Below, one piece after another: positions 12,691 to 56,149 of a stretch of 64,000 nt of DNA. The stretch lies in assembly GCA_950295325.1 (NCBI GenBank), contig OX485804.1:29140001-29204000 (forward strand), in the 5' to 3' direction. The notes beneath the pieces are model-generated. The model ran no database searches and was not told where the DNA came from. It saw nothing but the letters and a program-made list of their open reading frames with translations. Numbering within the stretch: the stretch's first letter is position 1; each line of letters starts with the position of its first letter. The position numbers were made by a program, and so were the translations under genes. The stretch is from Polytrichum commune (lineage: Eukaryota; Streptophyta; Polytrichopsida; Polytrichales; Polytrichaceae).

Positions 12691-13790
12691 CCCGGGTATG
12701 CAACTCCCATATTATACGCAGGGGGCATCGTATTAAAAACGGCTTAGAGGACGGCTTTTGTAAAAATTATATTAAATTATATCAAATTAAAATGATCAAA
12801 AAGTTGGGTGAAGACCAAATTAAATAAAATGAGATGAAAAAAAAGTTGGGTTGCATATTTATTAAAAAAAACTCCAACGTATATAAACAATTGAAACACC
12901 TAGTTTTTTAACCTTGTAAAGCGTCTAAGAGGGGTATTCAATGTAGATGTCGGATTAATATTCACAAATGATAGAGGGTCCTTTCGAGGTCTCCCTCTTT
13001 TGGAAGGAGTTGTGGCAATTACAGGTGTAACATATTCCTTCTCCCTATCTCTACCTCCACTACATGAGCCTCTACGCTTCATCTCACAATCCATGTGTTT
13101 GTTTAAGCCAAGGATGACCCTCCCAAATGAGCACAAGCACACTCCAAAGCGACGACACAAAGGCTCCAAAGCAAAGCCGCACACTCCAAAGCAAAGACAC
13201 AAAGGCTCCAAAACCGAACACAAAAGCTTCAAAGCGAATATATAGAAGCCTCAAACCCGTAGCCCTAACCCTAAACCGGGAACCCATGATATTTTGAAAT
13301 ACCCCATGATACCCTTGAATAGTCGGGGCACCATATGATGTATATGGTTTCAAAAATACATACCTCAATTGTATCCTAACACAAATCATTAGTTTTCTAT
13401 CCCAACAGTTAGACCAGTAAGTTGCCTATACATAAATTTAAAAAATCCACACGAATATTTGCCTCCAATTAGAATTATAAGCCACAAATAGTTTCCTCCC
13501 ATTAAAATTATAAGTCATTCACAATGTTAAAATTTTATTAAAAAGTCCAAAAAGTTGGGTAGTTTGACCTATGGTACATGTATTAAAAAATCATATAATT
13601 AGGTTTTTAATGCAATTATGTGATTCAAAATATATTCATTTCCTATATATAATTACATTTTTGGATTCCTTGTTAGAAGGGCGACAAGGGTTTCCTACAT
13701 TAAAACAAATTGTAGCACTCAGTATCGAACTAAAACGCATTATAAGTGATTATAATCAGGACCATATAATACGGGAGTTGCGTACCCGGG
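12691..13790 (-). mobile_element. hAT-like TIR element, copy A (1100 bp, perfect 8-bp TSD)
   Basis: The element begins CCCGGGTATGCAACTCCC and ends with its inverted form GGGAGTTGCGTACCCGGG. It is flanked on both sides by the same 8-bp target-site duplication TACAAACT (12683-12690 and 13791-13798). An 8-bp TSD points to the hAT superfamily, though the terminal CCCGGG is not the usual CAGGG of hATs. A second copy lies in opposite orientation at 38146-39231. It carries one small ORF (12900-13094, minus) and no transposase, so it is non-autonomous unless the ORF is a remnant. Confidence 0.75.
12900..13094 (-). CDS. Small AT-hook-like ORF inside the hAT-like element (64 aa)
   Basis: The ORF starts at the first ATG (MDCEMKRRG) and is 64 residues long. 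It is very basic and contains KRGRPRKDP at residues 32-40, an AT-hook-type GRP core flanked by lysine and arginine, as found in minor-groove DNA-binding proteins. The same frame is intact in element copy B with a single residue change (Pro48 to Leu). A 20-bp indel upstream shifts the frame 5' of this ATG between the copies, which supports starting here. The function is unknown: it could be an exon of a captured host gene or the tail of an element-encoded protein. Confidence 0.4.
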   Translation of the reverse strand: MDCEMKRRGSCSGGRDREKEYVTPVIATTPSKRGRPRKDPLSFVNINPTSTLNTPLRRFTRLKN

Positions 13791-24379: not shown

Positions 24380-24985
24380 TCCAGCATGGCATTGGGGATT
24401 GGTAGCATCAGATAGAACTCGAGGTGATCATCTACTGTTGTGATGGTGCAGGTGATGCTGAATGGATTGATTTTGATGTACTTAGAACTTGAGCTATTTA
24501 GTATATTTCGATGTAACTTTATAATTTATGCAACGAGGATGAAGTAAGTAACCTGAACAACTAATTCATTTTCTGCTGCTCAAAAGGTAATGTGTGAAAT
24601 GCCAGGCCTGATATAAATTGCCACAGTTGCCAGTTGAAGAGACAGGCTAGGGAAGTTCGTCCTGGTGGCTTCCGTGGGCGGATTCAGAGGTGAGATTGCA
24701 GGCTCAATCATGCCGGTATTGGGGTTTGGTAGCATCAGATAGAATTCGAGGTGATCATCTGCTGTTGTGATGGTGCAGGTGAAGCTGAATGGATTGATTT
24801 CGATGCACTTAGACTGAAGCAATTTAGTTATCGATGTACTTTTGTAATCCATGCCATGGGGTCGACGAATGATATATTACTGATGACTTAATAATGTAAT
24901 TTTGTTGCTCATAAGGCAATGTGTGGAATTGCAGGCCTGATCTTGCCACTACTAGAGTTCCAAGCTGAAGAGACACTAGGCCCGA
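24380..24985 (+). repeat. Tandem duplication (period about 327 bp) just upstream of the GALS start codon
   Basis: The segment starting ATTGGGGATTGGTAGCATCA at 24391 recurs as ATTGGGGTTTGGTAGCATCA at 24718. Following blocks keep their order: CGAGGTGATCATCT, GTTGTGATGGTGCAGGTGA, GCTGAATGGATTGATTT, AGGCCTGAT and GAAGAGACA. Only about 95 bp separate it from the ATG, so it is probably promoter, 5' UTR or 5'-UTR intron of that gene. Confidence 0.8.
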
Positions 24986-25079
24986 AGTTCTTTCTCCGAA
25001 AATCAAGCTTTGCATGAGCCTCAGTATCCAGAGGCTTGATCAGTAGGATGTCGACCAGTAATGTTTAAGAATCATCACG

Positions 25080-28000
25080 ATGGTTTCCAATATAGAAACA
25101 CCGCAAGGTCTGAAAGGCCGCAGCACGCGAACGATCATAGCAGTATCGGTGATTGTGGCCTCTCTGTTTTTCGTGTTCGAGCTCTCCTCCTACGGCCTCG
25201 TGAGTTCCATCGGCGACATCACCCGCCTGCTGTCCACTGCAGTTGGCAAACCGGCAGCATCAAGACAGAGAGGTGAATTCTCTTCAGCTTGTTCCAAGAA
25301 TGCCAAAGTCCTGGCAGGAGGCATCACCCAAGGGTTACCAGAGGAGGTTGTCATGTCGGAAGCCTTTTTGCGGGAATCCAACATCAACACAACCGCCCTA
25401 GGTGACCTAAGCCATGGTACTTTTCGTCCATTTCGACCCCACGGCATAGCAGTCCACTTCTTCTTGGACTTTGGCACATACCGGAGCAGCCCTCGGGCTT
25501 TCTCTTGCGCAGGAACCATCAGCCGTGCGGTGGAGGATGCTTGGAGCCCCCCATTCGAATGCGAGTGGGTAAACCCCAACGGCACAGTTATCAAGAGCGA
25601 AAACGTTGCAAAATACAGACCAGGAAGTGAGTTTCGAGCAGTCTATGACTCCTTGATAGTCATCTGCCACTTTGGTGTAGACATAGGCACCGACGGCAAA
25701 GGTGGAGAGCTTTTCATCAGCTACTCATACCCTGCCAACGATCCTTACCGACTTCCTGAAAAGTTTTTGGCACTCACCGAATCACCTGGGGTTTACCAAC
25801 CTGGCATGTTTGAGCCTCCGTTTCTGTATGATATTGCGTATTGCGGCTCACCGATCTATGGGAACGTCTCCCCGCAGCGAATAAGGGAGTGGATTGCCTA
25901 CCATGCGTATGTATTCGGGGAGAAGACGCATTTCATCTTCTACGATGCGGGAGGGATTCACGGCGAAGTGCAGAGAATTTTGCAGCCGTGGGTGGACAAG
26001 GGTAGGTTAAGTGTGCAGAATGTGCGGCAATTGATGATGTATTCCGGATATTATTTCCACCAGCATACCGTTGTGAATGATTGTTTATTCCGGTCGCAGT
26101 ATATGGCGAACTGGACGTTCTTCTTCGACATCGATGAGTATGTGTATGTGAATAGCAGTGCTACTAACCTCACCGCCTTGTTGGCGGAGAAGGAGAGCCA
26201 GGACTTGACGGTGATGCAGTTCAACCAGAAGCGCATGTCGCATGCTCTGTGCGCCCTGCCGAAGGATGCTAAAGGGGATAATTCCACCCGTGATGCCCAG
26301 AACGCCGAGTAAGAATCTGAATTCACTGCTAATGACTTATCTCCTCTGAGATCCTTTACATTGAAGCTGAATATGCCGCAAGACTTTGTACAGATATTGC
26401 ATGTGTTGAATGTTGGCTCATTATTATTTAACAGAATGATCTATGAAAAATTGAATGTGCTACAAGAGAGTAGATAATCTGACAGTGAGCTCAAATCCTT
26501 CCTGAACATCTGCTGGCAACCGCATCAGGATCCCCGCAAGAGATCCACGCTCTCATATTGATCGAACACACTACAGAATCATAGCAATTACTGCACAGTG
26601 CTCGAACTGAATATGTTCTCCGAATTACTAGATCCATAATAATGGCATGCTCAGTAATTTCACATGCAGGCAACCCAATGAAGATCTAGATCCAGTTCTT
26701 CATTGGGTTGCCTGTGAGATTACTGAGCATGCCTTACATAGGCATACAAGGTACCGTAGGTTGATAGCAAGTTGGGCAAAAAATGTTCAATATTCATTTT
26801 ACAAAAAAAGGCTCAGGCGGTTCATAAAAATGTTGTTGAAAAATTAGGTAAATACGTATATATAATTACGTATATGGATTTGTCCTACATACAAATCCAT
26901 GTGTTGTACCTTAAATTTCATTCATTTAGTCATGTTGGCTAAGTACGGGATGCTAACTTTAGGGTTTAGGTTGAGCCTTTCTTAGTGTGCTTATTAGGGT
27001 TGTGAATAGTCTTTCATGTCGTTTTGTGCTCATGTTCAACAGAGGTTGTTTGAGAATGTGCAAGCATGGCTAAGAGGTAGAGGCAAATTAGTCAAATGTT
27101 GCATCCCGCTGACAAGGATGAGAGACTATTGAGTGTTGAGAAATTTCCTAATATTTAGATTTTTATGATTATTTTCCCTTCCATTTAGGCCATTTGATTC
27201 ACTCGTTTCCACAAAATTAGGCTTGATTATTTTAAGTTATTTTATGCCCAACTTGCTATCAACCTACAATAGCATTTACCTCGGGGAGTGCACTTAAAGT
27301 TAAGACTAGGAATCACGTGAGTGCGTACTTTTGACCCCCCCTATGTATGTACTAAAAAATCATCTAAAAATTGTAAAAAATATATATGAAGTTGTTAAAC
27401 ACAATCTAAAGTTCTTATTGTATAAAATTCAAAAAATAATCAATTGTAAATATTTTTAAATTGATTTTTGAAGCAAAAAACAACGCATTTTAGTTCAAAC
27501 TTCTATCATTTTTTTTAATAATTTTTAAAAACTTTTCGTCCTGAAATTTATACCAAGTGATAGATATATACGTAATGATTTGGCACTTAAAAACTATTCA
27601 TTTATAAACTATTTTAAGGCCAAGTATTGTAGGGGGTATGCCATTAAAACGCACTCACGTGTATTCCTAATCTTAACTTTAAGTGCACTCCCCGGGGCAT
27701 TTACACTAGTCAATAGGTGAAAGGAGTCCTCCTTCATGATTTTCCACTAATAGAAAATGTGGTCCAAAAAAAACATATTCCCCATTTGACTTGGCGGTCA
27801 TTAGCACATGACTCATTGACAAGTGTTCAACATGGTCTATTATTGCCATAGATTGCATTCAACACTTGTCGATGGGATCATGTGCTAATGACCACCGATG
27901 CCAAATCATAAATGTGTTCTAGGATCATGTTGCCTAGTAGGATTATAACATGATTTGTCACACTCGATCATAAAACCAAACAAAAATGTTGTTTTTGCCT

Positions 28001-38145: not shown

Positions 38146-39231
38146 CCCGGGTACGCAACTCCCGTATTATACGGTCCTAATTATAATCACTTATAATATG
38201 TTTTAGTCCAATATTGAGTGATACAATTTGTTTTAATGTAGGAAACCCTTGTAGCCCTTCTAACAAGGAATCCAAAAATGTAATTATATATAGGAAATGA
38301 ATATATTTTGAAGCATATAATTGCATTAAAAACCTAATTATATGAAATTTTTAATGCATGTACCATAGGTCAAACTACCCAACTTTTTGGATTTTTTAAT
38401 AAAATTTTAACATTGTGAATGACTTATAATTTTAATGGGAGGCAACTATTCGTGGCTTATAATTCTAATTGGAGGCAAATATTCGTGTGGATTTTTTTAA
38501 ATTATGTATAGGCAACTTACTGGTCTAACTGTTGGGATAGAAAACTAATGATTTGTGTTAGGATACAGTTGAGGTATGTATTTTTAAGACCATATACATC
38601 ATATGGTGCCCCAACTACGTACTCAAGGGTATCATGGGGTATTTCGAAATATCATGGGTTCCCGGTTTAGGGTTAGGGCTTAGGGTTTGAGGCTTCTATA
38701 TATTCACTTTGAAGCTTTTGTGTTCGGTTTTGGAGCCTTTGTGTCTTTGCTTTGGAGCCTTTGTGTCGTCGCTTTGGAGTGTGCTTGTGCTCATTTGGGA
38801 GGGTCATCCTTGGCTTAAACAAACACATGGATTGTGAGATGAAGCGTAGAGGCTCATGTAGTGGAGGTAGAGATAGGGAGAAGGAATATGTTACACCTGT
38901 AATTGCCACAACTCCTTCCAAAAGAGGGAGACCTCGAAAGGACCCTCTATCATTTGTGAATATTAATCTGACATCTACATTGAATACCCCTCTTAGACGC
39001 TTTACAAGGTTAAAAAACTAGGTGTTTCAATTGTTTATATACGTTGGAGTCTTTTTTTAATAAATATGCAACCCAACTTTTTTTTCATCTCATTTTATTT
39101 AATTCAGTCTTCACCCAACTTTTTGATCATTTTAATTTGATATAATTTAATATAAATTTTACAAAAGCCGTCCTCTAAGCCGTTTTTAATACGATGCCCC
39201 CTGCGTATAATATGGGAGTTGTGTACCTGGG
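38146..39231 (+). mobile_element. hAT-like TIR element, copy B (1086 bp), inserted in copia pol
   Basis: Its ends match those of copy A (CCCGGGTACGCAACTCCC at left; inverse at right with one change), in opposite orientation to copy A. The flanks share TAAATG, a degraded TSD. Copia coding sequence continues on both sides. A TATATAT box at 38696-38703 precedes the AT-hook ORF, and a 20-bp deletion relative to copy A lies upstream of the ORF. Confidence 0.75.
38827..39021 (+). CDS. AT-hook-like ORF of element copy B (64 aa)
   Basis: Differs from the ORF of copy A by one residue in 64 (Leu48 against Pro48). It keeps KRGRPRKDP and the basic tail RRFTRLKN. The intact frame in both copies could reflect selection or simply recent divergence. 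Confidence 0.4.
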   Translation: MDCEMKRRGSCSGGRDREKEYVTPVIATTPSKRGRPRKDPLSFVNINLTSTLNTPLRRFTRLKN

Positions 39232-46756: not shown

Positions 46757-46829
46757 TTCCGTTGCCGGGACTCGAACCCGGGTCGCTCGGGTGAGAGCCG
46801 AGTATCCTAACCATCTAGACTACAACGGA
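46757..46829 (-). tRNA. trnE-CTC: tRNA-Glu (anticodon CTC)
   Basis: Full cloverleaf on the minus strand. The acceptor stem TCCGTTG pairs with CAACGGA over 7 bp with discriminator A. The D-arm contains GTCTAGATGGTTAGGAT. The anticodon stem CTCGG/CCGAG closes the 7-nt loop CTCTCAC, with anticodon CTC at 46793-46795. The T-arm reads CCGGGTTCGAGTCCCGG. There is no intron and no encoded CCA, as expected for a nuclear gene. Matches the standard plant nuclear tRNA-Glu pattern. Confidence 0.97.
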
Positions 46830-47453
46830 TATGTTAATATTTCAGTTAATCATTCTATTTATAGATTTTTCTACGTCTTGGTCCTCCATTGTGATGATTT
46901 TGTGTCGGGGCTCTCTCAACAGATTGTTGTCTCACAGATTTTGCAAAGTTGCAAACCACTTGATCCCTGGGCTAAGATAGACAACCCGTATTCGGTTAAT
47001 TTTCTTATTATGACACCTATAATTGACATGCAGTTTGGTGGGGCTCCACAAATGTATACGAGAAAGACATGTGTTTAAACGAGGATGGAATGCGTGCTCA
47101 AATATGATTACCATTCTTGGCTCAATATCCATTGAAGACTTATCGACCTTATATAATGTTTCTCTCCATATATCACCCTCCACCATGCTAGGTGGTGTCA
47201 CGAAAATTTACCCACAAGATCCGCAAGTTCTTTTTCTATATTGAGCAATTTCAGGGACATCAACAACGTCCAGAATTCATCCAATATGGCAATATGACAT
47301 GGATGGATGGTTAATAGTCCCAGATTCGGCCTGTATATGCTCTTCGCCGGATTTTTATCGACCCCCAAATGCATGTGGGGATAGTGTGATCGAGCAACAT
47401 CATATTGGCGAAGCGGAGAGAAATAAGTCGAGGAAATCGCGAGGATTGGAGAA
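46830..47453. other. METTL16 upstream region
   Basis: Promoter and 5' UTR of the following gene. Antisense ORFs here (for example 47198-47602) are shadows. Confidence 0.45.
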
Positions 47454-50400
47454 ATGCATCCTCGTAACAAGTATGCAGAGAAGCCGCCCGATTTCAACCT
47501 GCTGGCATCGTTGTATCCTGCGTTCCAAGAGTATGTGTCGTATGGCCCCAACCAGAAAGCACGCATCGATTGGAGAAATTTCAATGCCACCCGAGAACTC
47601 ACGCGCTCGCTGCTCCATCACGATTATGGCATCACCTGGTAATCGCACCTCCACTGCATAGGGTTCGGGGTTTAGGGCTTATTGAGTATCGTCTGCATCA
47701 AGTTTACACTTGATGTCTCTAACAACATTGAAATGCACGGAAAATGAGATTGGAAAGAATTTGCATAAATCAGGAGCGCCTAGGCCTTTTAGTTTCGTAG
47801 CTGTATTTCTCACCCTCTTGCTGCACCATGACGGTTGTGGCATAACCTGGGAAGCTCACCGCAACTGCCTAGGTTCAGCGGGTTTATGGAGTATTGCCCA
47901 TCAAATTTACAATTGAATGGTTCTAAAAACATTGAATTGCAAGGAAAATGAGATTGGTACCTGTGGAAATAATTCACATGAATGAGGTGCGCTTAGGTCT
48001 TCTAATTTAGTAACTGCATCTCTCACCCTCTTGCTGCACCGCATCACCTGGTGAGCTCACCTCAACTGCACAGGCTTCAGGGTTTAGGGGTTAGGAAATA
48101 TTGTCTGCATCAAATTTACACGTGAACATCTTCAACAACATCAAAATGAGAACGGCACCTGTGGTATTAATCCACATAAATGACGAGCGTTAGGCCTTTT
48201 GATTTATGAGCTCAATTTCCCATCCTCTTGCTGCGCCATCACGAATACGGCATAACCTGGTAAGCTGGATCCCTAAAGTCCAGGGATTTGGGTTCAGGGT
48301 CTATGAAATCTTGTCTGCATCAAAATTTCACTATAATTTCTTCATGTCATTGAGTCCACGAAATATGAATCGGCGATCGGGTAATAGCTCACACAACCAA
48401 GGAAGCTTAGGCCTTTGATTTGGTGACTGCAACAAAGCACTGGGCTTGGAAGGGAGGTGTATTGTTGTCATCTTGATGATCTCACCTTCTTACATCATCT
48501 TGTTAAAAAACAGTAAATATCTCACACAACATTCTTGCCAATGCTAGGTGGATACCAGATGGGCAGCTTTGCCCTACTGTCACAAACCGAGCTAATTACA
48601 TACACTGGATTGAAGATTTGCTTGCCTTGTCTCCGGCTCCCTGGCACCATCCCAGCAGCAAGCAAGTGGCAGGCATTGATATAGGCACAGGAGCCAATTG
48701 CATCTACCCCTTACTAGGCACCGCACTACATGCTTGGAGATTTGTTGGCACAGGTACTTATTGCACAATGGTGTTCACACAATGAAGGTTTATATCACTA
48801 TTTCTTATCTAGTGCACCCCTTTCGTGGCTGAAAGCAGGCCGCATAGCGGCTGAAACTCTTGAGCTTGAAAAGCCTGGCTTCAATCAAAAGACCTGTTGA
48901 TATCAGGCTGAATTTGAGCTGATTGTCACACTTAACAGAGAACTGAAAAGAACTGGAAAAGTGAGATTTCTCCATGTGTTGGGCTGTGCAGATATCACAG
49001 CAGTTGCTTTGGAGTGGGCACAAAAGAACGTGGAGTCAAATCCTCATGTTGCATCTTGGATTGAAATCCGATGTGCATTGGTGGATCCCAACAAAAGTGT
49101 TGGTGGTGCTCAAGGAATAGACGACTCGGGTCCTATTTCCATCGGTCCTGCCCTTCCACCTGGAGCTATCAAAGGGCCTGAAGATTTAGACAAGCAACAG
49201 CAAGAAGCAGCTGTTGAAGAATCCCATACTTCACCAATTTCAGGAGAAAACTCAGGCACAGAATTTGTACATATTGGTCTTCAATGGCCTCCCCAGCTTC
49301 CTTCTGCTGACCTAGAAAAGTCTACAACAACTACTCTAAGTCCAGAACAGGTGCCACCAGACCTGACAGTCCAATCTGAATTATGTAGTAATGTACATAA
49401 ATCTGACAAGGGAGAACCACGTGTACTAGTGGGAGTAGTACAAGAGGGGGAAACATTTGATTTCTGTATGTGCAATCCACCGTTCTTTGAAAGCATGGAG
49501 GAGGCAGGCTTGAATCCACGCACAGCATGTGGCGGAACACCAGCAGAAATGGTGTGCCCTGGGGGTGAGGAGGCTTTTGTCAACCAGATTATTGAAGATA
49601 GTGTCCAACTCCAGCATTCAATTCAGTGAGTACTGCAGAAACCTTTGCACGAAACCTGATTTGAGTGGAATTTTCACTTTGAACACAATCCTTTTACTAT
49701 TTTATATTCTCTACTTTCAGTTTCACCTGTTAGGATATGGTAGTTGTGCTTTATCGGAATGCTCTCAAGGTTGTGAACATACTACCAGTCCATACGTCTT
49801 GCTTCATTGTAAGCATCTCTATGATCCATATGGATGGTATTTGATTTTTCTAGAAAATCAAATGTATGATACTCAAACATTCAATTCAGTGAGTGTTGAA
49901 CGACATTTTTCACACAAAATCTGATTTAGTGGAATCTTGACTTAGAACATATTTTTCATTCTGCTCTGTGTAATTGCTGAATGATATTGTCACATTCCTT
50001 TTGATGATTTCTTTTCAAGATCAAATGTATGATAATCGACCTTTTATGTGAATTGGGGAGCAGCTGGTACACTACAATGGTAGGTCGCAAAGTGACTCTT
50101 AAGGGGCTGACTGCAAAGCTTTGGGCATTGGGTGCGGCTACAGTGCGCACCACCGAGTTTGTACAGGGTCACACCTCACGTTGGGGTCTTGCTTGGTCCT
50201 TCACGCCTCCCCCAAAAGCGGCACAAATCAAGACCTCTTTCACGAGCAAGAGTAATGTCTCATTTATGCTTGAGGTGAGTACCACCTCTATTTGAGCATA
50301 GCATTCTTAAGTGGTGTAGTGGGTGTACTCCCTAGATAAGCATCTTGGAGAGTATACACTTAGTGAGATTCATTTTGGCAAGTTCTTAAGTTGAATCTTG

Positions 50401-51999
50401 GTACATGAGGAGAAGGCTTTGTCTGAAGATAGGTGACAATGAGGTGTCCACCAATGACAACTTCGCACTTGACTATGCTTGGGTTTTATGCATGCAATCA
50501 AGAACCTTGATTCCTGGATATATTGTTCAAGTTGGAATAGAAAGAGAATTGCATGGCTGGGTTTCTGCTTATTTTTCCCATTATGAGTTTAGTTCTAGAT
50601 AAACTTCTTGTCGTCCTTGATTTAAGAGGCTACTATAAGGTTGCAGGTATCCATAGGAACAGAAGGATTACACGTAGACCGCTCTGCTGTTTGTGCTGAT
50701 GGTCACTTCTGTTGATTTCTCAGGGGCTTGGTCGGGGATGCAGTGCAGTAGATGTCCTGCAACTCTTGGCATCACAGCTGCAATCATTTGGCGCATCATG
50801 TCACATCAGCTTACCAGATTTCTCTATCAATGTATGGTTCTCCATATTCTGAATTTAAGCAGAAGTCCTGTGAGACAACCTTCTTAATGTTTGTAGGCTT
50901 CCTTTGTATTTGTGCAAACAACATTACAAGGTTGGAAGGGTTATATTGGAGGATTTGCAACCATAGAAAAACAACAGTGCTTACTGGCGATTTATACTGC
51001 CAAGCGTATTATTCTTGCTGGGTCTGAGAATTGTCCACTACTGTTGTCAATCAGTTTAAAGATCAAATCATTCACCAGGAAGAATAAAGAAGCCTCAATT
51101 TGGTCATTTAACAAACAAATGATGTTTTACAAGGTGAATAAAGAGTACTTTATTCCAAGTTGAGGATGCGTCTATAATCTGGAAATTGCTTAATGTACAG
51201 GGTTATTTACCAGGCACCCTCAAAGATTCCAAGCTTTCTGATGGCGTTGGGGACAAAAGGAAAAGAGATTCAACAGGAGTTGAGTACGGAACTAGGACTA
51301 GTAGTAGAGTAGAACCATCATTCAGAGCCTCGGTAAGCATCCCAGGAGTGTCAACATCATCTGTGTAGTATTTACAGGATATCCAGATTCAAGTATTTTA
51401 TTTAATCCATTTTATTCCAAAAGTAAGTCATTTGGCCTTCAGAATTTGTGGCACAGATTGGGAGAGAAACTGTGACAAAGATGATGTTTTCAATGCAGGT
51501 TTTCCAGCAAGCACCTGGATCTCTCCTGGTCAAGGCATCTTCAACCAAGGGTGCTGATCCTGGTAATTTCAATAAACTTGCTTGGTTGTCTTGTGTCATA
51601 TTGAGGGCTATAAGTTCTTATACTATTTCAAGAGCACTTGAGAGTGGCAATTTCAAGTAATTTGGCAGCTACTCTAACCATGTGATTTAGTGTGGCCCAC
51701 ACTATTCATCATCAACCCACATTAATTGTCTTGCAAGCACTGGGTGGCAACGAGAGAGGGTGTCATATGACACTTGGTGCTATATGACAAGTCATTACGA
51801 CCACTCTAATTAACATGGCACATCACCTTCAATGCCACACTAATTCAAATGTTTAGTTTAGTTGAGATATTAGTCATAGCATTCTTGCTTTGGAGTTCTA
51901 ATGTCTGCATGTTGATGTGCAGGAGCAACTTTTGCAGCATTGTTTGAGCAAGTGGAACAGTCTCTCAAGCAGAACCTTGCTTCAAGGTTGCAAAAGTAG
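47454..51999 (+). CDS. METTL16: METTL16/FIO1-type RNA m6A methyltransferase, about 538 aa
   Basis: S-adenosylmethionine-dependent N6-adenosine methyltransferase. By family knowledge it targets U6 snRNA; the Arabidopsis homologue is FIO1. Exons: 47454-47638, 48548-48753, 48992-49625, 50064-50274, 50724-50831, 51201-51332, 51499-51562, 51923-51999; all junctions keep phase. It starts MHPRNKYAEKPPDFNLLAS (human MHARNRYKDKPPDF). The SAM site GIDIGTG is at 104-110 and the catalytic NPPF at 292-295 (CNPPFFE), followed by GG-x-P and GEEAFVNQIIEDS. Exon 4 encodes WYTTMVGRKV and TEFVQG(H)TSRWGLAWSF. The C-terminal end (VFQQAPGSLLVKAS, ATFAALFEQVEQSLKQ) matches the plant C-terminal domain. A Ser/Glu-rich insert of roughly 120 residues separates the DPNK region from NPPF. 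Exon 6 and a possible extra exon at 50897-51133 are the least certain parts. Exon 4 has two adjacent acceptors (50061 or 50064). Confidence 0.88.
47606..48280 (+). repeat. Exon-1/donor boundary repeated four times in tandem in METTL16
   Basis: The end of exon 1 and the start of intron 1 recur at about 47606, 47816, 48030 and 48237 (spacings 210, 214 and 207 bp). Each copy has a C(T/G)TGCTGC(A/T/G)CC...GGCAT(A/C)ACCTGG block followed by a GCAT-CAA-TTTACA block and an AATGAGA segment. Only the first copy continues a long upstream frame. Copies 2 and 4 retain the Ile-Thr-Trp codons of the exon end, and copy 4 keeps a GGTAAG donor. Confidence 0.85.
49608..49955 (+). repeat. Exon-3 donor region of METTL16 duplicated in intron 3
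   Basis: CATTCAATTCAGTGAGT at the real donor (49626) recurs at about 49878-49894. Downstream similarity continues (ACGAAACCTGATTTGAGTGGA against ACAAAATCTGATTTAGTGGA). The period is about 264 bp. The copy keeps a full GTGAGT donor but lacks the upstream coding sequence. Confidence 0.75.
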
Positions 52000-53742
52000 A
52001 AAATACTGTTACTATGTATGATTCAAATATGAGTATCATTGATTAAGTTTGACAAACTCAGATCTGTAGTTGCCTTCTTTGGGTTGCTTATGAGTGGCTT
52101 GACAGTGGCTGTGGACATTAAGGTCATGTTTCTCAAACTGAGGTCATATTCTTCATCAGGAGTCTTAACATTGTTGGGCACATTATTTTAAACCCAATCT
52201 GTGTACTTCTTGCAGACATGTTGTTTTAACCCCTAAATCCCTAAGCACCATTCTCCTCAAGATTGGCCTCAAATCATTGTTTCTAAGAGGGATAATTTAG
52301 GACTCAATTTGTAGGTGTTTTTGAACATCCAACCATACGGATATGATAGCAGCCTTTGTATAAGCTATCCAAAAAATATCCACCGTCCATGTGGCAATGT
52401 GAATAAGGAACTAGTATATATGTGAAGATATAATGCACGGGGTAGATAATTGAAAACAAACTTTAAACAAACTTTCATACCACCCTTGATGTCGAGAAAA
52501 ATTTAACCCACTATCACCAACATATTTCATGATATGACTCATGTGGAAACCAGCTCTCGTGTTGGCAAAAGATGCAACGGTCATAAGTTGAAATTTTGAA
52601 GTTGGGCTTGATATTTTATTTTATTTGGATAATGGTATGGATGAAGACCCTCAATAACAATAGAAGTAGTTGCATAGATGTATAATACATACATGTGAGA
52701 GTTTGAAACCAAACACCCACAAACAAGAAAATTTGTTTCCTCATTCAAGTCTTAGTGACCTTCTCCAAGTGTTGGACACAATCACTGCGGAGCATTGTTC
52801 TACTACAAATTACAACAAAATTGACTTGCATATATCTATTCTTGAATTATAAAAGAATCAATGACGAGTGGGTGATCCAGATGAACATATGACATGGCTC
52901 CATAGTGAATTCTCTTTTTGAGAGAGCTACCATAAGTATAGCAAGCAATAGAAGGTTGAGAACATACATCATAAGGACATGTGCTATTATGAGATAGTTT
53001 CCCACCATACGGCTCACTAACTCTCCTTTTTGTTCCCTCTACCTTTTTTATGACATAGACTCCCAGACATCCAACCTCATTGCCAATTATCTGCATATAA
53101 TATAACAAGGACAACAATAAGAAATAACATAATAAGTCATGAGTGCACCCATGCCCTAGGGTTTCAGGATATAAGAGAGGGAGCGACATTACGGAGGTTA
53201 AGGTGTACTACTAAAAGGACAATCACAATTGAATCAGTAAAGAAAAGACAATGCTAAAGATGAAGGTACTCAAAGAGCAAGATTGTTGAAATGGTAATTT
53301 CTTACAAGAACAACTTAGGTAGAGGATCAGCCCCCACTCAGTTTCTTCTAATCAAAATTGTGCTTTCCTGCAGTAGCCAAGAAAGGCTTACTAATCTTGG
53401 GTATGCTGCTTGAAGAGCATACTACATAAGAGGATGCTTTACAACCCGTGATGCAGAAACGAGGTATGATTTTCCAGCGATGCAGCTACAGTATCCCATC
53501 AGAAACCTTCTGCACTTCCCATATAGTTGGAGGAAGAAACCCTCCTGCTCTTCAGCAAAATTGTTGAGAAAGTCATAAGATGCCCAGCTCATTAAAATTG
53601 GCTGAGGTGCACTCTACAAGATTCTTTGAACCATTTCCTAAGCACCCCATTCCATTCCACTAGCTCCTGGAGCTCCGGCCACCATCTTCACTAATGTTTA
53701 CATATATTGTGGTCAGGATGTTATCACAAAAGCACCTGAGAC
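52000..53742. other. Convergent intergenic region between METTL16 and EMB514-like
   Basis: Holds the 3' ends of both genes. AT-rich, with short ORFs only. Confidence 0.55.
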
Positions 53743-56149
53743 CTATCGACCCCACCGGCCACCTTTGCCGCGACCACCACCTCCTCTTCCACCTCTTCCG
53801 CCACCACCTCTCCCACCATATCCATGTCCTCCTCTGCCTCCGCCCCCTCGGCCCCCATTCTGATTACTGTGGTGCCTAGCTTTTTGTCCAGGAAAGAGTT
53901 TCTGAAGGTCCAGTTCACCATTTGACTTGAACAGGCTCTCTGGCAAGGGCATCAACTTGTCCACACACTTCCTGTAACTGAAGTCGTCAGTTGATCCATC
54001 GCTGCGGATCAAATAGTAACACCTGCTTTGCCACTGGGGGTGACTGCGAACTTGGAATGATGTGATCCCAACCCCCTCCTTCTGTGGATTCCCTTGTTTG
54101 ATAAGCTCCGACAGAACCATGAACTCGTACTGGAGAAGAAAGATTAAAAAGAGAGAGAGAAGCTTAGTCAAACTTAAGAAAACACATCAGCTCAGATAGA
54201 TGGCCACAAGAAGAGATTGATCTATACTTGTACATATTTCCAACAAATTCGTGCACAAAGTGTACAGCCTGCCTGGTCCTTCTAACCAGATTCAAAATCC
54301 AGACTGAATGACTTATCTCTTTCAATGTATTTTGTTGAATACATTGTAAATAAATATCTGTGACAAAGGCTATTTACTAAAACAGATTTCATTGTGCAAT
54401 TCTGTGAAAAAATCTTTGAAAGTTGGTCACATACAGAGTGCAAACATTACATCTCAACAAGCCGAAGGCCGAAGCCATGAAGAACAGGGCTGTCATCTAA
54501 TGAAAAATGGATGGGTAGCCTCTGAAGGTAGCACACTCAATCACCTCTTACTGACCAACGACCTCTAGGCATAGACAGAACCAGCAAGAAAATACTCCGT
54601 CCTCATTTCAAAGGGAGTGCTGAAAGTCTTCAGGTTTTCCATTCTTTTCTTTTTTTTGACAGTGAGTATCTTACCTTGTTAAGTTTTTAGTTCACATTCC
54701 AAGCGTGCAGGAAAACGTAGAAGTGGGTGAATATCTCAACAGCCCAAGGCAGAAGACATAAAGACCAGTGCTGTCATCTAATGAAAACTATATGGGTAGC
54801 CTCTCAGAGTAACACATTACGTCATCTCCTACTTACCACAGAGATCTCTAGGCATTGACATAAACAACAAGAAAAATACTCTATCCTCAATTCAAAAGAA
54901 GTGATAAAAGCCATAATAATATTCCCACTCCTTCAATTTTCCACGGCGAATATCTTACCTTGTTAACATTCTCGTTCACGTTCCACGCGTGCAGGAAGTC
55001 GTAGAAGTAGGTGAACATCTCAACAGAAGAATTGAACACCTTTGGTCCAAGCTTGACGGGAGCAGCAGCAGCTGCAACCTTTGCTTCCTTCTCCTCCCCC
55101 ATTTCCACATCATTTACTGCATCTCCACCCACATCCGCCTTCACCCTTTTCACTAAAGCACCATCTTCACCAACTTCCTCCACATTAGCCTCAGCCGCAG
55201 CCTCATCCTCCCGAAGACGCTTCTTGGCAATTTTATCCGCTTCTGTGTCCATAGCCTCCTCAGTTCCAGTCACCACGCTCTCGTTCAACGTCGACACTTT
55301 ATCGACTTTCACAGTATCAGTGACGCTCTTCGACACCACTTCCCCTGTTCTGGGAACCACCTCCTCCACCGTCGTCACAGTCTCCTCAACGATAGTCACC
55401 GTCTTCTCCGTCACTTCCGTCACCTTCTTGCTCACAACATCATCGCCACCAGCTTCGTCACCCGCGACGCCTTCCGCAATGGACTTGTCCGCAAGAGTGT
55501 CCCCGGGTATGGTGTCATCCGGAGGCACATCATCCACAGGCAACGACGAAGGCATGGTAACAGTGTGGCTAGGTTTCACCTCCTCCTTAGTCGCCATAGC
55601 CACAAACTCGCCTCCCTCACAAACCTCAACACCTTCAACACCCACAATAACCTCCCCTGCCTCCCCTAACCCTAACCCTAGCGCGTCCACATCCACGTCC
55701 ACTCCAACATCAAAGTCATCCACGGGCTCCGTCACAATAGCCGCGTCCACGTCCACGAGCGTCACCTCCGTTGGCAGCAACTCTGATGAGTCGCCTTCTT
55801 CCTGATCAACAACAAGAAGCTCCTCCACCACCTGAACCCGCTGCTGCTGCTCCTGCAACACATGAACCGAGTCCGTGTCCACCTCGTCACCCGCAATTGT
55901 GGTGGTGGATGATGTGTGGGCGGAATTATTAGTATCGTCGGAGGGGAGAGTGACGACAGGCGACAGCGGATCTTCTTTCGGGGCGCCCGACTCCTCCTCC
56001 CCCGCTGCCGGGACCGCTAGTGTTGTGGTGGTGGTTGTCGTTGTCGTTGCCGTCGTAGTCTCCGTCTCGGCCACCTCGACTGCAAGTGTCGCCACTGCCT
56101 CTTGGTCGTCTGCTGCTTGCTGTTGGTCGTGCGGTGGAGATGGCGCCAT
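53743..56149 (-). CDS. EMB514/DOMINO1-like DUF3223 protein with RGG tail, 525 aa
   Basis: Related to Arabidopsis EMB514/DOMINO1 and tomato DCL, small plant proteins needed for embryo development and linked (family knowledge) to nucleolar function or rRNA maturation. Two exons on the minus strand: 56149-54959 and 54129-53743, joined in phase 0 at NVNK/YEFMV. The DUF3223 domain runs from about residue 366 (KLGPKVFNSSVEMFTYFYDF) to 464, with FQVRSHPQWQSRCYYLIR, DDFSYRKCVDKLMPLPE. The last 40 residues are a Gly/Arg-rich RGG tail (NQNGGRGGGGRGG...), typical of RNA-binding and nucleolar proteins. The first 365 residues are a Thr/Val/Glu/Asp-rich, low-complexity acidic extension absent or much shorter in the relatives I recall. 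The intron contains a decayed copy of the exon end (54441-55020). The start is the first ATG after a pyrimidine-rich leader. Confidence 0.88.
54441..55020 (-). repeat. Tandem duplication of the EMB514-like exon-1 end and donor
   Basis: The unit containing the real donor (54959) and the downstream intron is repeated about 284 bp further into the intron (donor-like site at 54675). Both share TATCTTACCTTGTTAA, the TTCCA(C/A)GCGTGCAGGAA block and the GCTGTCATCTAATGAAAA block. Read on the minus strand, the copy still spells HAWNVN but then has a stop, so it is a dead exon copy. Confidence 0.85.

Follow-up and report, generated by a model that had tools for sequence, protein, structure and literature searches.

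Four-unit internal tandem duplication across the first splice donor of a METTL16/FIO1 gene in Polytrichum commune

FIO1 reportedly methylates U6 snRNA, favouring donors with A at +4, and competition between duplicated 5′ splice sites is said to have been assayed in test genes. Human METTL16 controls intron retention in MAT2A and is not itself a retained-intron target; by this established knowledge, a preliminary description of the DNA studied here, which presented the human homologue as itself regulated by intron retention, had the analogy inverted. Tandem duplication across an exon-intron boundary has been described in Drosophila (PMC2891723) and by Rogers and Hellsten (as cited in PMC4974935). 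A tandem genomic duplication of this kind is also reported for a potato RdRp gene, in which the last part of intron 1 was copied together with the first part of exon 2 and an additional intron formed; the same gene had a duplication of 83 bp inside its first intron that left the gene structure unchanged (PMC4974935). For Arabidopsis fio1 mutants, one study reports that A+4 donors lose use, that the effect is bigger with G at +5, that an AG exon end is protective and that shifts between two A+4 donors are smaller (PMC9803359).

The locus compared with these systems is the first intron of a METTL16/FIO1 gene (hereafter FIO1) in a 64-kb window, that is, the whole stretch of Polytrichum commune DNA that was analysed (64,000 nucleotides). 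Head-to-tail copies that include an exon edge and a splice site were found there, and the array is an internal tandem duplication over a splice donor. As in assays with duplicated 5′ splice sites, near-identical serial donors face one acceptor, but the FIO1 array is natural and diverged and the competition is a prediction. As in the potato RdRp gene (PMC4974935), an intragenic tandem duplication has copied an exon edge with its splice signals; unlike in potato, the donor side was copied, there are four units, and the extra ones stay in the old intron without a new intron, the gene model having one intron at the site with the copies inside it. There is also a likeness to unproductive splicing in autoregulated splicing genes, in that an alternative site would lead to an early stop and the product acts on splice-site choice, whereas use of the FIO1 decoys, unlike that of autoregulated poison sites, is predicted. 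Among the literature items listed, judged by title and start of abstract, nothing matched tandem repeats with a first intron and splice donor, and a literature search for internal duplication with a cryptic donor found none.

The gene was identified as METTL16/FIO1 by a profile search, in which PF05971 scored above its curated cut-off at four exons. On the forward strand, the coding part of exon 1 (47454–47638) opens with the ATG at 47454, corresponds to profile positions 6–66 and ends in phase 2 (...ACC TG), the spliced reading being continuous; exon 2 (48548–48753) corresponds to positions 68–134, and exon 3 (48992–49625), also matched by PF05971, carries an NPPF-type motif, CNPPFFE, which we take to be the catalytic motif of METTL16/FIO1. 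Intron 1 (47639–48547; 909 nt, GTAATC...TAG) is placed in the gene model by the in-frame junction of the first two profile matches, and splicing from 47638 to 48548 restores ...HHDYGITWWIPDGQLCPTV...; the junctions 47638/48548, 48753/48992 and 49625/50064 join four exons into 410 uninterrupted residues reaching 50270. Exon 2 matched 12 PDB sequences, METTL16-named chains among them and psilocybin synthases too. On this sequence evidence the gene is likely a candidate U6 snRNA m6A methyltransferase. A search of 47000–52300 for the METTL16-type target motif, which we assume to take the forms ACAGAGAA and TACAGAGAA, found a single ACAGAGAA at 48935, in intron 2, and no TACAGAGAA. Upstream of the gene lies a minus-strand tRNA-Glu (CTC) at 46757–46829.

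PF05971 also matched at three other places in the genome, one on C4 and two on C7, together covering profile positions 58–96. Two of these matches lie in a dispersed repeat longer than 3.1 kb (L005 on C4 and L006 on C7; 97% identical over the length of L006), which, by alignment of L005 to the window, has captured the end of FIO1 intron 1 and the start of exon 2 (window about 48435–48646; L005 positions 1487–1660). Since these two matches are a captured fragment of the window gene itself, the profile search, which can miss weak matches, shows one METTL16-type gene in the genome. The captured fragment, which lacks a stretch of about 32 nt of the gene, begins right where the tandem array ends; a third PF05971 fragment lies at C7:26907888–26908001.

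The array consists of four diverged head-to-tail units of 211, 213, 197 and 214 nt (47598–48432, forward strand), each beginning with the exon 1 end (41 nt, or 29 nt for unit 3) and continuing past the donor position into the first part of the intron. Unit 1 (47598–47808) holds the 41-nt exon end, the real donor GTAATC at 47639 and the intron start; in unit 2 (47809–48021) the exon-like end is followed by a destroyed donor, GGAAGC at 47850; unit 3 (48022–48218) has lost 12 nt of its exon-like end and carries the decoy donor GTGAGC at 48051; and unit 4 (48219–48432) carries the decoy GTAAGC at 48260 behind its exon-like end. All six unit-pair local alignments scored 168–250, above the maxima of 90–98 obtained from 500 dinucleotide-preserving shuffles per pair. 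Units 1 and 2, and 1 and 3, are 78–79% identical, units 2 and 3 77%, and unit 4 is 66–68% identical to the others, so that identity over all pairs ranges from 66 to 79%. The tandem quadruplication of the exon 1 end and donor announced in the preliminary description is thus borne out, the four units aligning end to end beyond shuffled sequence, and direct repeats were found at spacings of 197–198, 204, 210–213 and 410–412. The span first given, 47606–48280, caught a real array that starts about 8 nt earlier and ends about 150 nt later, and copies 3 and 4 keep their donors as first described; copy 2 has lost the GT. At its default threshold Tandem Repeats Finder did not list the array, and a genome search (E ≤10; a lossy DNA search) with 47800–48230, which covers units 2 and 3 with their edges, returned three matches, all within the array.

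The real donor reads CTG/GTAATC (the slash marking the exon edge), and the two surviving decoys, 412 and 621 nt downstream, read CTG/GTGAGC and CTG/GTAAGC. All three surviving donors have A at +4 and follow an exon end other than AG; at +5 the decoys, unlike the real donor, have G. Pairing with the U1 5′ end gives −8.1 and −8.0 kcal/mol for the decoys, which rank first and second among the 53 GTs of exon 1 and intron 1, against −5.1 kcal/mol for the real donor, which shares eighth place with two others. Competition between decoy and real donors, as earlier proposed, is therefore plausible, both decoys pairing better with U1. The other three FIO1 donors pair at −7.1, −7.1 and −12.2, and when the strongest GT close to the exon end is taken at 19 of 20 surveyed loci, the median is −5.3, a rough figure because the donors of those loci are unannotated; that the real donor lies near this median speaks against calling it weak.

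Should the real donor be skipped, the consequences follow directly from the reading frame. The exon frame across the donor is TGG TAA, and the in-frame TAA (47640–47642, forward strand) stands directly at the exon edge, so that a transcript skipping this donor ends after 62 residues. Whether the junction forms at 48051 or at 48260, the stop lies 408 or 617 nt before it, and by the 50-nt rule a stop that far ahead of a junction makes a typical substrate of nonsense-mediated decay. The copies had also been credited with possible alternative leaders, and this falls away: the productive frame, which joins exon 2, is open for just 65 and 50 nt ahead of decoys 3 and 4, and these stretches contain no ATG, while the exon frame meets the TAA; copy 2 does hold an in-frame ATG, at 47713, but has no donor. 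Decoys 3 and 4 are thus likely latent poison donors, wasteful splicing being expected over new proteins, since with either of them exon 1 would read on straight into the stop and the transcript would be unproductive.

The divergence of the copies bears on whether they have been maintained. Among decoys 2 to 4 identity is higher in the exon-like part than in the intron-like part (28/29 versus 117/160, 33/41 versus 103/164 and 25/29 versus 105/161 identical positions in the three pairs; Fisher p = 0.004, 0.04 and 0.03), in tests that overlap, are not independent and were chosen after seeing the data. The codon changes in the exon-like parts are mostly replacements (six replacement and two silent in copy 2, and likewise in copy 4), so these copies do not resemble selected coding sequence. 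In a proteasome-family array described below, the difference between exon-like and intron-like parts was not significant (decoy pairs, p 0.14–0.65). Over the arrays read, eight of nine decoy donors are still GT, the loss being one of the three FIO1 intron 1 decoys, and by a rough reckoning this retention fits chance.

The same architecture recurs at another intron of FIO1 and in three genes besides FIO1, so that donor-spanning duplication is not peculiar to the m6A writer. At intron 3 of FIO1, copy A (49608–49711, forward strand) comprises the end of exon 3 and the real donor GTGAGT at 49626, and copy B (49871–49963), inside the intron, repeats the exon end with a decoy GTGAGT at 49889; 16 of the 18 exon-end bases and the GTGAGT recur 263 nt downstream, and the copies align with a score of 40.5 against a maximum of 18 in 500 shuffles. 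About 7 kb from FIO1, a DUF3223-type gene on the minus strand has a 284-nt tandem unit whose first copy (54743–55026) holds some 68 nt of exon end and the donor AACAAG/GTAAGATA at 54958, and whose second, intronic copy (54449–54742) holds the decoy AACAAG/GTAAGATA at 54674, the edges of both copies being approximate and the donor sequence intact in both. The DUF3223 match itself falls in the next open stretch (53743–54186), and in the profile search the exon 1 frame gave no DUF3223 match; we infer that the two belong to one gene. A Ras-family gene (C2; L017, 1337–1459), presumably Rab2, has its exon end and donor, ATCACCAG/GTACAG, repeated within the intron, 70 nt further downstream, as GTTACCAG/GTACAA with the donor kept, and a proteasome-family gene (C1; L054, about 1739–2850), presumably an alpha subunit, has three in-register decoys (CCAG/GTTTK) spaced by 266–277 nt and a fifth unit begun; for both genes Pfam shows families only. 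Upstream of the start codon of a Ras-family gene lies a diverged multi-copy array (L016, 2099–3038) in which, by eye and on the minus strand, several units have GGTAYGAAT-like sites; it is possibly the same arrangement at a 5′UTR exon.

Tandem duplication is frequent in the sampled parts of this genome. Seven tandem clusters were found in the window, in a scan whose shuffled control was one shuffle, 23 in nine arbitrarily chosen 10-kb pieces, and the Ras loci gave a list of 10 in which one cluster appears two times. For a comparison of exon edges with other positions, a nearby copy was defined as a significant match within about 900–1140 nt downstream (upstream for acceptors). The survey covered 43 of 53 Ras matches (10 being without letters) and all 18 proteasome matches, and omission of sides near the profile ends left 38 donor and 42 acceptor sides (200 shuffles); a further 20 donor sides, hand-picked from 91 listed matches and biased to first exons (300 shuffles), brought the donor sides to 58. 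Exon ends in this survey are the ends of profile matches, not annotated donors, and some rows contain in-frame stops or are close paralogues. Three of the 38 donor sides were flagged, one of which (L013) is a microsatellite and was excluded from the count; the side at C4:8488562, whose score was reached by one of 200 shuffles, was not flagged. In this partial survey a nearby copy stood at 2 of 58 donor sides (scores 29 and 30, both above 28) and at none of the 42 acceptor sides, the 20 later donor sides contributing none. At arbitrary positions (90 kb) the count was 27 of 513, 12 of them scoring at least 28, and at window positions 12 of 394, six of them scoring at least 28 (both tested against 100 shuffles, with a minimum score of 16 and simple sequence filtered out). 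Donor-specific enrichment, which the DUF3223-type, Ras-family and proteasome-family cases had suggested, was not supported by the 20 donors without a copy or by the arbitrary-position control; duplications are not clearly enriched at donors over a background of the same order, in a small sample with approximate exon ends. The assembly has seven large contigs of 42–78 Mb, which suggests seven chromosomes. Elsewhere in the window, a 327-nt tandem duplication (24388–24941) lies directly upstream of a glycosyltransferase family 92 frame (25062–26312), and alike 33-nt and 22-nt tandem repeats at 13142–13514 and 38423–38779, inverted by eye and about 25 kb apart, resemble the ends of a large element.

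Against this background, the array is most likely an old, near-neutral internal tandem duplication that crossed an exon edge by chance and left latent poison donors. A segment of about 210 nt, running from some 41 nt before the end of exon 1 across the 5′ splice site into the beginning of intron 1, would have been duplicated in tandem, expanded to four copies and then diverged by 21–34%, a divergence that makes the array probably old. The extra copies lying wholly within the intron, the original exon and donor would have gone on making the protein and the duplication would have been tolerated. The crossing of the exon edge would be a chance result of frequent tandem duplication in the sampled parts of the genome, and the donors left over in copies 3 and 4 are good U1 targets whose use would give an unproductive transcript; this order of events, the age, the near-neutrality and any actual use of the decoys are what we infer from the anatomy. 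Two observations count against neutrality, namely the greater conservation of the exon-like parts of the decoys, as if they were maintained, and the poorer U1 pairing of the real donor, which nevertheless lies near the median of the surveyed loci. That a dispersed mobile element or satellite carried the unit by accident is extremely unlikely: the units are repeated and the dispersed repeat did capture a fragment of FIO1, but the unit starts within coding exon sequence and 47800–48230 has no copy elsewhere in the genome by the lossy search at E ≤10, and the candidate was rejected for want of dispersed copies. A mutational process, linked for instance to transcription or to R-loops in first introns, by which tandem duplications tend to begin a short way upstream of 5′ splice sites would account for arrays that begin about 41 nt (FIO1 intron 1), 68 nt (DUF3223-type gene), 23 nt (Ras-family gene), 29 nt (proteasome-family gene) and 18 nt (FIO1 intron 3) upstream of the donor; yet the donor rate does not exceed background, the contrast of 2/58 donor with 0/42 acceptor sides is well inside chance, and selection against decoy acceptors predicts an equal asymmetry, so that we regard such a process as improbable.

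Two further readings give the decoys a function. The possibility that FIO1 senses its own U6 m6A output through the intron 1 decoys, in a negative feedback loop, would, if true, make the array a cis-encoded U6 m6A sensor built by tandem duplication of the gene's own donor: at high U6 m6A the A+4/G+5 decoys would win and FIO1 mRNA would contain the stop, and at low U6 m6A the decoys would be hurt more, the real donor favoured and FIO1 restored. The surviving donors belong to the U6-dependent class, all being A+4 without AG at the exon end, and the G+5 and U1 ranks of the decoys, the TAA at 47640 for both 48051 and 48260, the better conserved exon-like parts and, in the Arabidopsis study, the loss of A+4 donors in fio1 mutants, more so with G+5 and with protection by AG (PMC9803359), all agree with such a loop. 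Against it, shifts from one A+4 donor to another had smaller effect sizes in the same study, one of the three decoys is dead (copy 2), the architecture also occurs in genes without an evident m6A link, and decoy use is a prediction; no FIO1/METTL16 autoregulation was reported in the literature found on these terms, judged by title and start of abstract, and "autoregulat" is absent from the main text of PMC9803359. We consider this loop very unlikely. A role of the decoys as unspliced U1 snRNP docking sites in a first intron, which would curb premature polyadenylation or boost transcription, is likewise very unlikely: it would suit the top two ranks of the decoys among the 53 GTs by U1 pairing and the multi-copy donors kept in the proteasome-family array, but the decoys of that array pair worse than their real donor (−6.4, −6.4 and −5.6 versus −7.5), one FIO1 decoy has no GT, and duplications show no clear excess at donor sides (2/58 versus 27/513 arbitrary positions).

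The reading frame of this gene requires a donor whose U1 pairing is poorer than that of two of its own copies downstream, which makes the locus a natural experiment in splice-site choice. The gene probably encodes the enzyme whose mark on U6 influences which donors are chosen, so junction usage here would be directly informative. Donor-spanning copies recur at approximately the general rate of tandem duplication, so that decoys of this kind can persist and may feed alternative or unproductive splicing.
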